From NCBI RefSeq assembly GCF_001438845.1, contig NZ_JQCL01000080.1, positions 72,061 to 136,060 of the forward strand: a stretch of 64,000 bases of DNA. The letters run 5' to 3'. The notes under the pieces were generated by a model that had not been told where the DNA came from, did not search any database, and saw only the letters and a list, made by a program, of their open reading frames with translations. The translations under genes were made by a program, and so were the position numbers. Origin of the DNA: Lactiplantibacillus xiangfangensis (GTDB lineage: Bacteria; Bacillota; Bacilli; Lactobacillales; Lactobacillaceae). Below, in pieces: positions 216 through 5,234 of the stretch (within the stretch, counting starts at the first letter, position 1; every line of letters begins with the position of its first letter).

Positions 216-478
216 ATTGCCTTTTGGCCCACGTTTCGACCATAGTAATAAGGAAAGCCATTCCAAAATAGTTGATATTTCTGAATGGCTTTGTGAATTT
301 TGTCTCACACGCTTTTTAATCATTGTGAAGATTAGCGCATTAAAGGCAGTTCTGCACCTGAAAATTCCGTATTTGCATGGCGTGTTGTTTGCAATTTACT
401 TTTAATATACGTTATGCTAATTAGGGTACAGTTTATTAAGTGAACTGAAAAAGCAGAAAAATGATTGGAGTGATGAGG
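216..478. promoter_or_regulatory. intergenic region with candidate opuC promoter
   Basis: This stretch has no convincing gene. A 10-bp inverted repeat (254-263 with 283-292, 19-nt loop) may be an old terminator. A promoter-like pair TTGCAA (389-394) and TATGCT (413-418) with an 18-nt spacer lies about 60 nt before opuCA and is the best candidate for its promoter. No clear operator was seen. Confidence 0.4.
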
Positions 479-1684
479 TTGTTTCTGACAATGGAACATT
501 TGAACAAGACGTATCCTGGTGGCAAAGTCGCCGTTGAAGATTTTAATCTAGAAATCGAAAAAGGTGAGTTTGTTTGTTTCATCGGGACTTCTGGTTCAGG
601 TAAAACGACGACCATGCGGATGATCAATCGGATGTTAAGTCAGACTTCCGGCACTATCAAGTTAAATGGCGAAGATATCAGCAAGATGGATCCGGTGAAA
701 TTACGCCGCCAAATTGGCTACGTAATTCAAAACATCGGGCTGATGCCGCACATGACGATTAGAGATAATATCACCTTAGTGCCGCGTTTACTTAAATGGC
801 CACAAGATAAGATGGACGAACGAGCCAAAGAAATGATTAAGCTAGTCGAATTACCAGAAGACTACTTAGACCGCTATCCATCCCAGTTATCTGGTGGGCA
901 ACAGCAACGGATCGGAGTTGTTCGGGCGTTAGCTGCGGACCAAGACTTAGTTTTAATGGATGAACCTTTTGGGGCTTTGGACCCAATTACTCGTGAAGCC
1001 TTACAAGACTTGGTCAAAGACTTGCAGGAACGTCTGGGCAAGACCTTCGTATTTGTGACCCATGATATGGATGAAGCGTTGAAGTTATCAACGCGGATCG
1101 TCATCATGGACGGTGGCGAAATCATGCAGGTTGATACGCCAGATGGTATTTTACGGCATCCCGCTAACGAATTCGTTGAGAACTTGATTGGGAAAGACCG
1201 GTTGATTCAAGCCCGGCCAAGTATCACGACCGTTGGGCAAGTTATGCTTAAAGACCCAATCGCAACGACCCCCGGCAAGTCTTTGACGGATGCGCTGCGG
1301 TTAATGCATGATAAGCGTGTTGACTCCCTGTTAGTGACTGACGAAGCGGGTATCTTAAAAGGTGTGATTGGCATTGAAGACGTGGATTACAACTTTAATT
1401 CCGCAACCAGTGTCAGTGACATCATGAAGAAGGACCTGTTCTATGTTCAGTCCAATTCGTTGATTCGTGACACCGTTGAACGCATTTTGAAACGGGGCTT
1501 GAAGAACATCCCCGTCGTTGATGACAATCACCGGCTAGTCGGAATCGTTACGCGGGCAACCTTGGTTGATATCGTGTACGATGCGCTCTGGGGTGACGAA
1601 GAGGCAGATGAAGAAACGAACAATATTCACCACGGGGAGGACGAAGACGCCGACTCCGCGAGTGCCAAGGGCGGTGAAGCCTAA
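479..1684 (+). CDS. opuCA: glycine betaine/carnitine/choline ABC importer, ATP-binding subunit OpuCA
   Basis: This is the ATPase of a QAT-family osmoprotectant importer, energising uptake of compatible solutes at the inner face of the membrane. The sequence shows Walker A (GTSGSGKTT), the Q-loop, the ABC signature LSGGQQQR, Walker [14 protein letters not shown] and the H-loop VTHD, followed by two CBS domains in about residues 250-375. In related importers the CBS pair senses ionic strength, which I infer here. A TTG start at 479 is preferred because GGAG at 466-469 is well spaced and the N-terminus then matches OpuCA length; an ATG at 461 or 491 is possible. The gene overlaps opuCB by 1 nt. 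It has about 401 residues and an acidic tail. Confidence 0.9.
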
Positions 1685-2316
1685 TGATGAGTTTCTTACA
1701 AACTTACGGGGCCCAGCTGCTAGTTAAAACTTGGCAACACTTGTACATTTCGGCTTTTGCGCTGTTACTTGGCGTGATCGTCGCGGTGCCCATCGGGGTC
1801 TTGTTGACCCGTGCAAATGGGACCGTGGCTAACGTGGTGATGTCGATTGCCAGTATGCTACAGACGATTCCCGCAATGGCGCTCTTAGCGTTGATGATTC
1901 CGTTCTTTGGGATTGGGAAGATTCCGGCAATCGTGGCGTTGTTCATTTATTCGCTATTGCCAATTTTGCGCAATACCTACTTAGGGATGAAAGATGTCGA
2001 ACCGGCGCTGATTGATGCCGCTAAGGGAATGGGTATGACGAGTGGTCAGTCGATCATTAAAGTCGAAGTACCCATGGCTGCCCCGGTTATCATGTCTGGG
2101 ATTCGGTTATCAGCAACGTACGTGATTGCTTGGGCCGCATTAGCTTCCTATATCGGTGCTGGTGGTCTTGGGGACTTTATTTTCAATGGTTTAAACCTTT
2201 ACCGAACTGACCTGATTTTAGGTGGGTCAATTCCAGTTATCATCCTAGCCCTCGTTGTGGATTGGTTACTCGGCAAGCTCGAAGCCGCTGTTACCCCACG
2301 GACAACACAGGCGTAA
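1684..2316 (+). CDS. opuCB: osmoprotectant ABC importer, permease subunit OpuCB
   Basis: This is one of two homologous permeases that form the transmembrane channel of the betaine/carnitine/choline importer. The 210-residue protein has five to six hydrophobic segments and the cytoplasmic EAA-type loop (around [12 protein letters not shown]) that docks on the ATPase. It overlaps the end of opuCA by 1 nt and precedes the binding protein, so the operon is transcribed as one unit. OpuCD, two genes downstream, is its paralogue with the same DxGKGMGMT loop. Confidence 0.9.
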
Positions 2317-2329
2317 GGGGGATAACGAG

Positions 2330-3265
2330 ATGAGAAAATTTAAAAAATGGATTTTAGGCATCATCGCGACGGTTGCTAGTGGTGTTTTATTAGCTGGTTG
2401 TGGTTTTCCCGGTTTATCGGGATCGTCTTCTGACACGGTTCGAATTGCCTCACAAAATACGACGGAACAACAAATTATGGCGTACGTGATTCAGGATATG
2501 ATTCAGCACTATTCTAAACTGAACACGACGATCATTAATAACTTGGGTTCTGGGACGGTTAGTTTCAACGCTTTGAAAAATAACCAAGCCGATATTTCAT
2601 CGATTCGTTTTACCGGGACCGATTTAACGACCATCTTAGGTGAAACGGCCGATCGGGGCAACGTGAAGGCGACCGATGATAAGGTTCGCTCACAGTTTAA
2701 TTCGAAGTACCACATGACGTACTTCCCATCCTATGGGTTTGCCGATACGTACGCGTTTATGGTGACCCAAAAGACGGCTAAGAAGTACCATTTGAATTCA
2801 ATTAGTGATATGAAAAAAGTCGCTTCTAAGTTAACAGTTGGGTTGGACCAAACTTGGCTGGAACGGAAGGGTGACGGTTACGACGACTTCCAGAAGTTGT
2901 ACGGCTATAAATTTGGGAATACTTACCCGATGCAAATTGGGCTAGTTTACGACGCGTTGGAATCTGGTAAGATGGATGCCATTTTAGGTTATTCGACGGA
3001 TGGTCGGATTGGCAGTTACGATCTTAAAATCTTGAAAGATGATCGTAACTTTTTCCCACCGTATAATGCCAGTGCCGTTGCAACGAATAAAGTCCTAAAG
3101 GAACACCCACAATTGAAGCCAATTTTGAGTCGTTTGAACGGTAAAATCGATTTGAAGACGATGCAAAACTTAAACTACAAGGTGGATAACAACTTGGTTG
3201 AACCAGAAGTGGTCGCTAAGCAATTCCTAGAACAACATAACTACTTTGAAGGGAGTGACAAGTAA
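2330..3265 (+). CDS. opuCC: osmoprotectant-binding lipoprotein OpuCC
   Basis: This is the substrate-binding lipoprotein that captures betaine-like solutes outside the cell and delivers them to OpuCB/OpuCD. The ATG at 2330 is chosen because a GGGGGA ribosome-binding site lies just upstream and the protein then begins with a proper lipoprotein signal peptide: charged MRKFKKW, a hydrophobic core and the lipobox LLAGC. The 311-residue protein has the OpuAC-type fold (PF04069 family by recognition), with several tyrosines and phenylalanines that could form the aromatic cage for quaternary ammonium. It overlaps opuCD by 1 nt. Confidence 0.9.
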   Translation: MRKFKKWILGIIATVASGVLLAGCGFPGLSGSSSDTVRIASQNTTEQQIMAYVIQDMIQHYSKLNTTIINNLGSGTVSFNALKNNQADISSIRFTGTDLTTILGETADRGNVKATDDKVRSQFNSKYHMTYFPSYGFADTYAFMVTQKTAKKYHLNSISDMKKVASKLTVGLDQTWLERKGDGYDDFQKLYGYKFGNTYPMQIGLVYDALESGKMDAILGYSTDGRIGSYDLKILKDDRNFFPPYNASAVATNKVLKEHPQLKPILSRLNGKIDLKTMQNLNYKVDNNLVEPEVVAKQFLEQHNYFEGSDK

Positions 3266-3918
3266 TGGCACACATGAATTTGCTGCAACAATTGGGGTAT
3301 TACTACCAACAAAACGGTGCGTACGTGCTTAGCCAATTTACCCGTCATTTTCTAATTTCAATTTATGGGGTGTTGTTTGCGGCCATTATCGGAATTCCGA
3401 TTGGGATTTTTATTGCGCATCATAGTAAGTTGAGTGCGGAGGTTATTGCCATCGCCAACGTGATTCAAACGGTGCCATCGTTAGCGATGCTGTCGATTAT
3501 CATGATTGGGTTAGGCTTAGGTGTCAACACCGTGATTGTCACGGTCTTCCTATATGCTTTACTCCCAATTATCAAGAACACCTACACGGGGATGCGAAAC
3601 GTTAGTCCTAGCATTCTTGATTCTGGTAAGGGGATGGGGATGACTCGCTGGCAGATTCTGCGCATGGTCGAGTTACCACTCTCACTATCAGTAATCATGG
3701 CTGGGTTGCGGAACGCGCTCGTGTTAGCAATTGGGATCACGGCGATTGGGACCTTCGTTGGTGCCGGTGGCTTAGGAGACATCATCATTCGGGGTACTAA
3801 CGCCACGAATGGTGGGGCCATTATCTTAGCCGGGGCATTACCAACGGCCTTGATGGCGATTATTTCCGACACGGTCTTAGCTTGGATTGAAAAGCGGGCC
3901 GATCCAACTCAAAAGTAA
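3265..3918 (+). CDS. opuCD: osmoprotectant ABC importer, permease subunit OpuCD
   Basis: This is the second permease of the importer, 217 residues, multi-pass, with the EAA-like loop DSGKGMGMTRWQ. It is paralogous to OpuCB. The start ATG overlaps the opuCC stop by 1 nt and follows GGGAGTGA. It is the last gene of the operon; a long hairpin with a U-run follows at once. The four-gene order ATPase-permease-lipoprotein-permease is that of Bacillus and Listeria opuC. Confidence 0.9.
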   Translation: MAHMNLLQQLGYYYQQNGAYVLSQFTRHFLISIYGVLFAAIIGIPIGIFIAHHSKLSAEVIAIANVIQTVPSLAMLSIIMIGLGLGVNTVIVTVFLYALLPIIKNTYTGMRNVSPSILDSGKGMGMTRWQILRMVELPLSLSVIMAGLRNALVLAIGITAIGTFVGAGGLGDIIIRGTNATNGGAIILAGALPTALMAIISDTVLAWIEKRADPTQK

Positions 3919-3925
3919 GGTAAAC

Positions 3926-4000
3926 AAAAAGATTGATTTACAGGTCACCCACCGTACTCATTCAGGGAAGTAGGGTCGGGCTGTAACATCAATCTTTTTA
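3926..4000 (+). terminator. terminator of opuC operon
   Basis: Arms AAAAAGATTGAT (3926-3937) and ATCAATCTTTTT (3988-3999) are perfectly complementary, with further pairing of TTACAG with CTGTAA inside the loop. The run of T at the distal arm fits an intrinsic terminator right after opuCD. Confidence 0.7.
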
Positions 4001-4079
4001 ATTTGCGGTTAAAACACTTCAACCAATATGCAAGGTTGTATTAGCTGAAATTTCATCTTTAACCGCAAGTAATTTAGTT

Positions 4080-4424
4080 TTAATTAAGTGGTGCGCGTTT
4101 AATATAGCGAATCATCGTTGGTTCAATCAGGTGCGTGACGTGTTGGTGACGGTTGACTAAGACTAACTGGCCACTTGCCAGAGTTTTGAGCACCCCGTGA
4201 ATGTTATAGGGATGCGTCTCCGTTAGGCTGGGTTGCATCTGTAACATAATCCGGTAGTGTTGGGTCTGAGCTTGTTTTAAGAACAAATCCCGCTGGAAAG
4301 CCGGCATCGTTGGCAGTAACGGCGCAACGATGGTCGGGGCAGCGATGAAGTCGTCCATAAATTGACGGTAGGAAGCTTGTAAATTTTTGGAAATTAATTT
4401 TAAATTAGATTGTTGATTTTGCAT
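4080..4424 (-). CDS. small orphan protein under a LexA-type promoter
   Basis: I do not recognise this 114-residue soluble protein. It has no membrane segment or signal peptide. The N-terminal half is helical (NLKLISKNLQASYRQFMDDF), and the C-terminal half ends in a short beta-rich stretch around GQLVLVNRHQHVTHL. That tail weakly recalls YolD-like proteins, which accompany error-prone polymerases, but the similarity is not convincing. The ATG at 4424 is chosen because GAGGTGG sits 5 nt upstream; an upstream ATG at 4442 has no such site. Its promoter carries a DinR/LexA box in the spacer, so it is very probably induced by DNA damage. It is divergent from gmk. Confidence 0.7.
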   Translation of the reverse strand: MQNQQSNLKLISKNLQASYRQFMDDFIAAPTIVAPLLPTMPAFQRDLFLKQAQTQHYRIMLQMQPSLTETHPYNIHGVLKTLASGQLVLVNRHQHVTHLIEPTMIRYIKRAPLN

Positions 4425-4456
4425 GTTGGCCACCTCGAACATTTGTTTGTGTTTTT

Positions 4457-4485
4457 ATTATACGAACAAGCGTTCTAAAATGCAA
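4457..4485 (-). promoter_or_regulatory. SOS promoter: TTGCAT-17 nt-TATAAT with LexA/DinR box in the spacer
   Basis: On the minus strand the -35 TTGCAT is at 4480-4485 and the -10 TATAAT at 4457-4462, with a 17-nt spacer. The palindrome CGAACAAGCGTTCT (plus strand, 4463-4476) fills the spacer and fits the Gram-positive LexA (DinR) consensus CGAAC-N4-GTTCG at 9 of 10 half-site bases. A repressor bound here would block RNA polymerase directly. Confidence 0.8.
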
Positions 4486-4613: not shown

Positions 4614-5234
4614 ATGGCGAAACAAGGCATGTTAATCGTCTTATCAGGTCCTTCGGGCGTTGGCAAGGGTACCGTCCGGAAGGAAATCTTTGACTCAGAT
4701 GATAACGATTTTCAATATTCAGTCTCGATGACGACTCGGAAAATGCGTCCGGGTGAAGTTGATGGAAAGGACTACTATTTTGTCTCCAAAGATGAATTCG
4801 AGGATGAAATTAACAGCGGCGGTATGCTTGAATATGCCAAGTATGTTGACAATTACTATGGAACGCCCTTAAAATATATCAAGCAGTCTTTGGCCGCCGG
4901 TAAGGACGTTTTCCTAGAAATCGAAGTTAACGGTGCCATGCAAGTTCGCGAAAAAATGCCTGACGGTGTCTTTATTTTCTTGACACCACCCGATTTAATG
5001 GAACTCAAACACCGGATTATTGGCCGGGGCACGGATGACATGAGTGTCATCAATAAGCGGATGGCCAAAGCCGTCGATGAAATCAAGATGATGCGCAACT
5101 ATGATTACGCGGTAATCAACGACGAAGTGCCGTTGGCTGCAGCGCGGATCAAAGCGATTATCAAGAGCGAACGTTACAGTGTGAAGCGGGTCATGCCCGA
5201 GTATGAAGAAATGTTAGGAGATGCGGAATCATGA
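4614..5234 (+). CDS. gmk: guanylate kinase
   Basis: The enzyme phosphorylates GMP to GDP with ATP in the cytoplasm, serving nucleotide supply and linked to (p)ppGpp control. The 206-residue protein has the P-loop GPSGVGKGT at residues 11-19, the GMP-binding region with [20 protein letters not shown], and the RxxGRGTDD lid. AAGGGG upstream sets the start. It overlaps rpoZ by 4 nt (ATGA), the conserved gmk-rpoZ pair. Confidence 0.96.

Follow-up and report, generated by a model that had tools for sequence, protein, structure and literature searches.

Gene X and its promoter

The window, a stretch of 64,000 nucleotides from Lactiplantibacillus xiangfangensis (RefSeq assembly GCF_001438845.1, contig NZ_JQCL01000080.1, positions 72,061 to 136,060), carries on its minus strand a small gene, here called gene X, whose open reading frame and translation give a protein of 114 amino acids (4080-4424, with the ATG at 4424 and the stop at 4080). 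The gene is present in a single copy in this genome. Comparison of its codons with those of loci L009-L011 gave dN values of 0.08-0.11 against dS values of 1.2-1.8, the latter near saturation, and because dN lies far below dS the reading frame is a genuine coding sequence. Gene X is divergent from gmk (4614-5234, plus strand), which encodes guanylate kinase as identified by Pfam and NCBIfam, and convergent with an opu-type transporter operon (461-3918, plus strand) that includes an ABC ATPase with CBS domains. A conserved hairpin element (3995-4078) sits between the X stop codon and the opu terminator, close behind the former. It has compensatory changes at 10 of its 19 predicted pairs across 13 Lactiplantibacillus sequences, a loop core reading GCAAGG and no match in Rfam. 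This candidate 3′ UTR structure could belong to the SOS-induced X mRNA.

The minus-strand promoter consists of a -35 hexamer TTGCAT (4480-4485) and a -10 hexamer TATAAT (4457-4462) separated by a spacer of 17 bp. The original prediction had placed a LexA box exactly within this spacer, and its coordinates proved correct: box 1, AGAACGCTTGTTCG, occupies 4463-4476 on the minus strand and is kept in relatives. That reading saw one of two boxes and overlooked the other. Box 2, CAAACAAATGTTCG (4436-4449, minus strand; CGAACATTTGTTTG when read on the plus strand), lies between the -10 hexamer and the Shine-Dalgarno sequence GAGGTGG (4430-4436, minus strand), over the expected transcription start, and its last base is the first base of the Shine-Dalgarno sequence. 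The centre of box 2 is 27 bp downstream of that of box 1. The 14-mer of box 2 recurs, identical and on the opposite strand, 68 bp upstream of the start codon of the genome's own lexA gene. In one relative (L030), a third LexA-like box, CAAACAGACGTTCG, is found at -85, 33 bp upstream of box 1.

A conserved twin LexA operator

We then asked how often such boxes arise by chance. The window holds 24 box-like sites at no more than 2 mismatches, compared with 32.8 expected from shuffles, and the whole genome holds 152/155 sites at no more than 1 mismatch, compared with 230/223 for a control pattern written backwards. One LexA-like box alone is therefore within chance expectation. The twin arrangement and its conservation are beyond it. 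A strict twin-operator pattern (box, TATANT, box) was found in 124 of 301 Lactobacillaceae genomes, representing 20 of 40 genera and occurring once in each genome, and the control pattern had a count of zero among the genomes listed from that scan. All 87 homologues identified by BLAST have box 2, and 85 have box 1 when up to 3 mismatches are allowed in it, with the two boxes 27 bp apart in 68 cases, 28 bp in 12, 25 bp in 3 and 34 bp in 2. A lenient re-scan of 8 further loci missed by the stricter pattern recovered twin boxes 27-30 bp apart in 7 of them and one box in the eighth (L173). The operators have hardly changed, whereas the protein itself, once outside the genus, is 12-35% identical to that of the window in a broad alignment.

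The pattern was followed beyond the Lactobacillaceae at 20 loci, two of which (in families f36 and f39) encode umuC-linked YolD proteins. Twin boxes 28 bp apart precede all four relatives in family f34, and one relative in f36 has twin boxes 32 bp apart. The five relatives in f38 divide into one with two boxes, two with one box and two with no box, and a LexA box was absent from all 8 loci of three other Lactobacillales families (f2, f3 and f35). Since some of these outside relatives do not have boxes, the wider superfamily is not uniformly SOS-controlled.

An orthologue of X has already been noted in print as SOS-like. The gene lp_1611 of L. plantarum WCFS1 neighbours the opu genes, runs opposite to them and has a LexA-DinR motif (PMC2174512), features that it shares with X, and we take it to be the direct orthologue. 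The match rests on adjacency to opu: the same gene order is common to loci L008-L014, including that of L. plantarum EGD-AQ4 (L011). Peroxide raised lp_1611 expression 32-fold, and the function of the gene was left unassigned in that paper (PMC2174512). The available part of the published account mentions no second box, wider family or YolD kinship (PMC2174512). A regulon study from 2013 described the LexA regulon, with 13 operons, as universal in its 15 Lactobacillaceae genomes (PMC3616900), and lp_1611 is absent from the main text of that study as available (PMC3616900).

The genome encodes its own LexA (TIGR00498, above cut-off). Together with a LexA-type operator that overlaps the promoter and is conserved in orthologues, this gives good support to the prediction that X belongs to the LexA (SOS) regulon. 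The SOS control proposed from a single box is borne out by two boxes conserved across genera and by the published peroxide induction of the orthologue.

Distribution and neighbourhood of the X family

The description of X as an orphan gene did not survive the homologue searches. By BLAST, 87 of 301 Lactobacillaceae genomes, from 13 of 40 genera, encode a homologue, and a profile search at E≤0.01 extended the family to 211 of 301 genomes and 30 of 40 genera, although matches near E 0.01 may include chance matches or umuC-linked YolD proteins. The closest protein match (99%) comes from a metagenome-assembled genome labelled 'Lactobacillus', and six other relatives are all from Lactiplantibacillus. 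No match to X was found on viral contigs or on plasmids, the latter searched by protein and, using the gene of relative L020, at the DNA level, and a phage search returned three weak matches to Leptospira phages (E 0.1).

The gene also has a characteristic genomic position, beside gmk in many genomes. All 20 representative loci read, which come from 12 genera, have gmk, rpoZ and recN within the 5-kb flanks (NCBIfam gave the names RecN and gmk, each on a single example). Our script recognised X itself in 19 of these loci, and in the remaining one (L152) a longer overlapping ORF masked X, which BLAST shows to be there. Another 40 loci (L161-L200) had gmk within the flanks in 38 cases, the exceptions being L172 and L173; the gmk-flanked loci include all 20 drawn from the twin-operator list, four of which come from genomes with no profile match (G024, G035, G092 and G296). 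By comparison, 5 of the 20 representative loci have the opu operon placed between X and recN.

A PC4-like gene adjoins X in several genomes. In two genomes of family f3 (L243, 3489-3833; L244, 3453-3773), the X homologue is divergent from such a gene, upstream of which both genomes have a perfect TACGAATA, a competence cin-box. In L148, L150 and L159, too, gmk and X are separated by a PC4-like gene. The identification is based on PF02229, named on a relative that is 59% identical.

A remote YolD-like domain

The original prediction had also stated that the protein matches nothing recognisable. Profile comparison indicates that the C-terminal domain is remotely related to YolD. In an hhalign comparison, the X family aligned with a YolD alignment at 95.9% (E 6e-9), over a predicted YolD-like domain of the Sm/SH3 type that spans about residues 38-112 (4089-4313, minus strand). 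YolD proteins of Bacilli alone gave 90.1%, and a narrower alignment of the X family gave 93.0%. An earlier comparison made with fewer relatives had scored 47% (E 1.9e-4), so that the score climbed as relatives were added. As controls, 16 neighbouring families scored at most 1.06%, column-shuffling the YolD alignment 100 times gave no value above 20% (2.7% for the best-scoring shuffle), and the reversed alignment gave 0.45%. Ranked by HMMER with the X profile, 26 of the 38 YolD-set proteins came above the best-placed of 209 control ORFs, and the remaining 12 ranked lower or were unlisted. Furthermore, whole-genome scans with the X profile retrieved umuC-adjacent YolD genes (L239 and L245).

Taken by itself, the protein of the window has no Pfam or NCBIfam match to YolD, and PF08863 has no match in the genome at E≤0.01. 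Both databases were searched with this single protein, and Pfam and PHROGs with 30-40 relatives. Scattered weak matches from these searches (HEAT, VTC, CRS1_YhbY and an 'exonuclease' phrog) were rejected, each family being matched by no more than 2 members. For motif counts we used 114 members, namely 84 of the 87 BLAST homologues and 30 proteins from loci L161-L200, the other 10 of which gave no ORF by the rule of the script. Three broken members (L036, L086 and L098) were left out of both these counts and the broadened profile, and a duplicate of the window protein (L016) was left out of the profile. YolD carries an N-terminal DRG..KW..LPEH arm, and none of the 114 members has the corresponding [DN]RG..[KR]W motif. 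Nor does any of them have a membrane-like stretch, the largest Kyte-Doolittle mean over 19 residues being 1.37.

The full-length structure model was poor, with a mean pLDDT of 50, and a model of the domain (pLDDT 72) gave a long helix and few strands, with no convincing barrel from either; a PDB fold search returned nothing below E 4. The proposed fold does not rest on these models. In sequence searches of the PDB, the best match of the broad family profile (A3) was Hfq (E 6.6e-4, profile positions 45-105), which neither the narrower profile A1 nor the YolD profile retrieved. YolD is predicted to fold as an SH3 barrel with kinship to Sm domains (PMC6511836), which agrees with the weak match of the X profile to Hfq.

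Overall, residues 38-112 or so are remotely related to YolD. We do not claim membership in YolD proper, because X has no arm, stays below the family cut-off and shows no link to a polymerase. The regulation of X and its homology to YolD are both well supported. Our literature search found lp_1611 in the one paper cited above (PMC2174512) and no paper on YolD-like proteins in Lactobacillus. As far as the literature was searched, this therefore appears to be the first description of a family that combines a conserved twin operator with a kinship to YolD confined to the barrel.

Relation to Y-family polymerases

In B. subtilis and S. aureus, homologues of YolD are induced in the SOS response, and they have been proposed as counterparts of UmuD for the UmuC-type polymerases of Gram-positive bacteria (PMC6511836), the arm of YolD/YqjX having been modelled as inserted into the polymerase (PMC12926913). 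The role of YolD/YqjX in B. subtilis is disputed (PMC13335488). X shares with YolD/YqjX (PF08863) a C-terminal barrel domain, as judged from profile comparison, together with SOS control and a similar length. It differs in lacking the DRG..KW arm, in lying outside a polymerase operon and in having its own promoter with two LexA boxes. Moreover, X occurs in genomes that apparently lack a UmuC-type polymerase and in others that apparently lack a DinB-type one.

The L. xiangfangensis genome has two Y-family polymerases (E 8.7e-51 and 3.2e-25). Its umuC-type gene (L202, 1465-3443) has a LexA-like box, GGAACAAGCGTTCT, just upstream and overlaps a downstream gene for a 149-amino-acid protein. That protein has no Pfam or NCBIfam match and is 42% identical to the L105 protein, itself a weak match to the YolD model. 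That this umuC already has a gene of YolD-like kind behind it counts against X in such a role. Across genomes with X at E≤1e-10, the sole Y-family match resembled the UmuC type in 13 and the DinB type in 9, a count made by hand with polymerase type taken from the E-value only and with many draft genomes included. Since X is found with either class alone, neither appears to be an obligate partner, and X is unlikely to serve one polymerase as a fixed subunit. The genomes of genus g6 (for example G005, G104 and G289) have a single Y-family match at E about 1e-26, near the value of the UmuC-type polymerase of L. xiangfangensis, and, judged from the E-value only, these genomes may lack a DinB-type polymerase.

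Of the functions first suggested for X, a polymerase accessory factor comes nearest to the evidence, but only as a candidate role, since the polymerase-binding arm and a polymerase operon are both absent. In the 20 representative loci read, X lies outside any polymerase operon.

Discussion

With about even confidence, we read X as a LexA-repressed SOS gene whose product, a stand-alone barrel of the YolD (Sm/SH3) type, would act by protein contact in damage tolerance. The product is predicted to be a small soluble protein with an N-terminal segment that is probably helical, followed by the YolD-type barrel. In undamaged cells, two LexA dimers would sit on the spacer of the promoter and on the transcription start, keeping basal levels of X low. 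Upon DNA damage, RecA-driven cleavage of LexA would release the promoter. This scheme of repression and release, in which LexA binding is itself inferred, is well supported by the architecture and conservation of the boxes and by the published peroxide induction of the orthologue. The X protein would then contact a partner in DNA-damage tolerance, most likely at the surface that the YolD barrel contacts in the proposed Gram-positive Pol V-like complexes, with the tail of a UmuC-type polymerase, RecA or the replisome as candidates. Because X lacks the arm that YolD is modelled to insert into the polymerase, X probably modulates or competes and would not be a stable polymerase subunit. Both partner and function are inferred here.

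X might also be a polymerase-independent SOS effector derived from the YolD barrel, a general damage-response switch that replaces YneA-type inhibitors or Hfq, and we offer this reading tentatively. It would mean that lactobacilli freed the barrel from its arm and placed it under the genome's only twin LexA operator of this pattern, and that the switch would govern division, replication, or RNA or single-stranded DNA. If so, the ancestral SOS function would be that of the YolD barrel itself and not its link to a polymerase.

A soluble SOS division inhibitor in the role of YneA or SulA, held under a tight double operator because leakage would stop division and let go once LexA levels drop, is an unlikely but live rival account of X that draws on the twin operator and on the strong published induction. 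X resembles YneA and SosA in being small, LexA-repressed and from a Gram-positive organism. In addition, a DUF896 (YnzC-like) gene runs divergently from the genome's own lexA (L015, 1088-2112), and the roughly 90 bp between the two contain no yneA. NF010723 (printed as PRK14125.1), which we take to be the YneA model and which was the sole inhibitor model searched, exceeded its cut-off in none of 121 Lactobacillaceae genomes. However, the same model gave sub-cut-off matches at E≤0.001 in 110 of the 121, which we presume to be LysM domains, so that a diverged YneA is possible. YneA and SosA are membrane proteins, and the known Gram-positive SOS division inhibitors are described as small membrane proteins (PMC13396833), whereas none of the 114 X members has a membrane-like stretch and X does not lie beside lexA. 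The domain kinship, too, points to YolD.

Still less probable, though also a live rival, is that X is a nucleic-acid-binding SOS protein of the Sm/Hfq type, acting on RNA or single-stranded DNA in lactobacilli without Hfq. Such a role would accord with Hfq being the top PDB match of the broad profile, with the failure to find Hfq in 39 of 41 genomes (including this one, which has no PF17209 match) and with two genomes outside the Lactobacillaceae in which the X homologue and a PC4-like gene diverge, PC4-like proteins being a family that binds single-stranded DNA. The match to Hfq over the X barrel is, however, weak, with marginal E-values, and was not reproduced by profile A1; X lacks the Hfq signature, the YKHAI segment of Hfq being aligned with ldlnqI in the X family; and the similarity to YolD, whose own profile does not match Hfq, is much stronger.

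The authors of the 2007 study proposed a regulator role for lp_1611 from its position and strand beside the opu operon (PMC2174512). We consider a transcription regulator improbable: Pfam finds no DNA-binding domain in the window protein, and opu, adjoining X in a quarter of the representative loci, is not a constant neighbour. That the boxes are chance sites beside an ordinary, unrelated small gene, as the unexceptional frequency of single boxes in window and genome might suggest, is scarcely credible given a twin pattern that recurs once per genome in 124 genomes, its control having none among those listed, and the published peroxide induction of the orthologue.

Returning to X as a YolD-type barrel that acts by contact, the finding bears on the contested question of whether YolD-like proteins are true counterparts of UmuD, for which modelling papers argue and against which B. 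subtilis genetics perhaps speaks, as far as the available parts of those studies go. As a natural relative of YolD that has the barrel only, looks strongly SOS-regulated and occurs with either polymerase class alone, X offers a way of testing the barrel without its arm. It also adds an unexplained gene to the SOS regulon of a bacterial family that lives in food and the gut.
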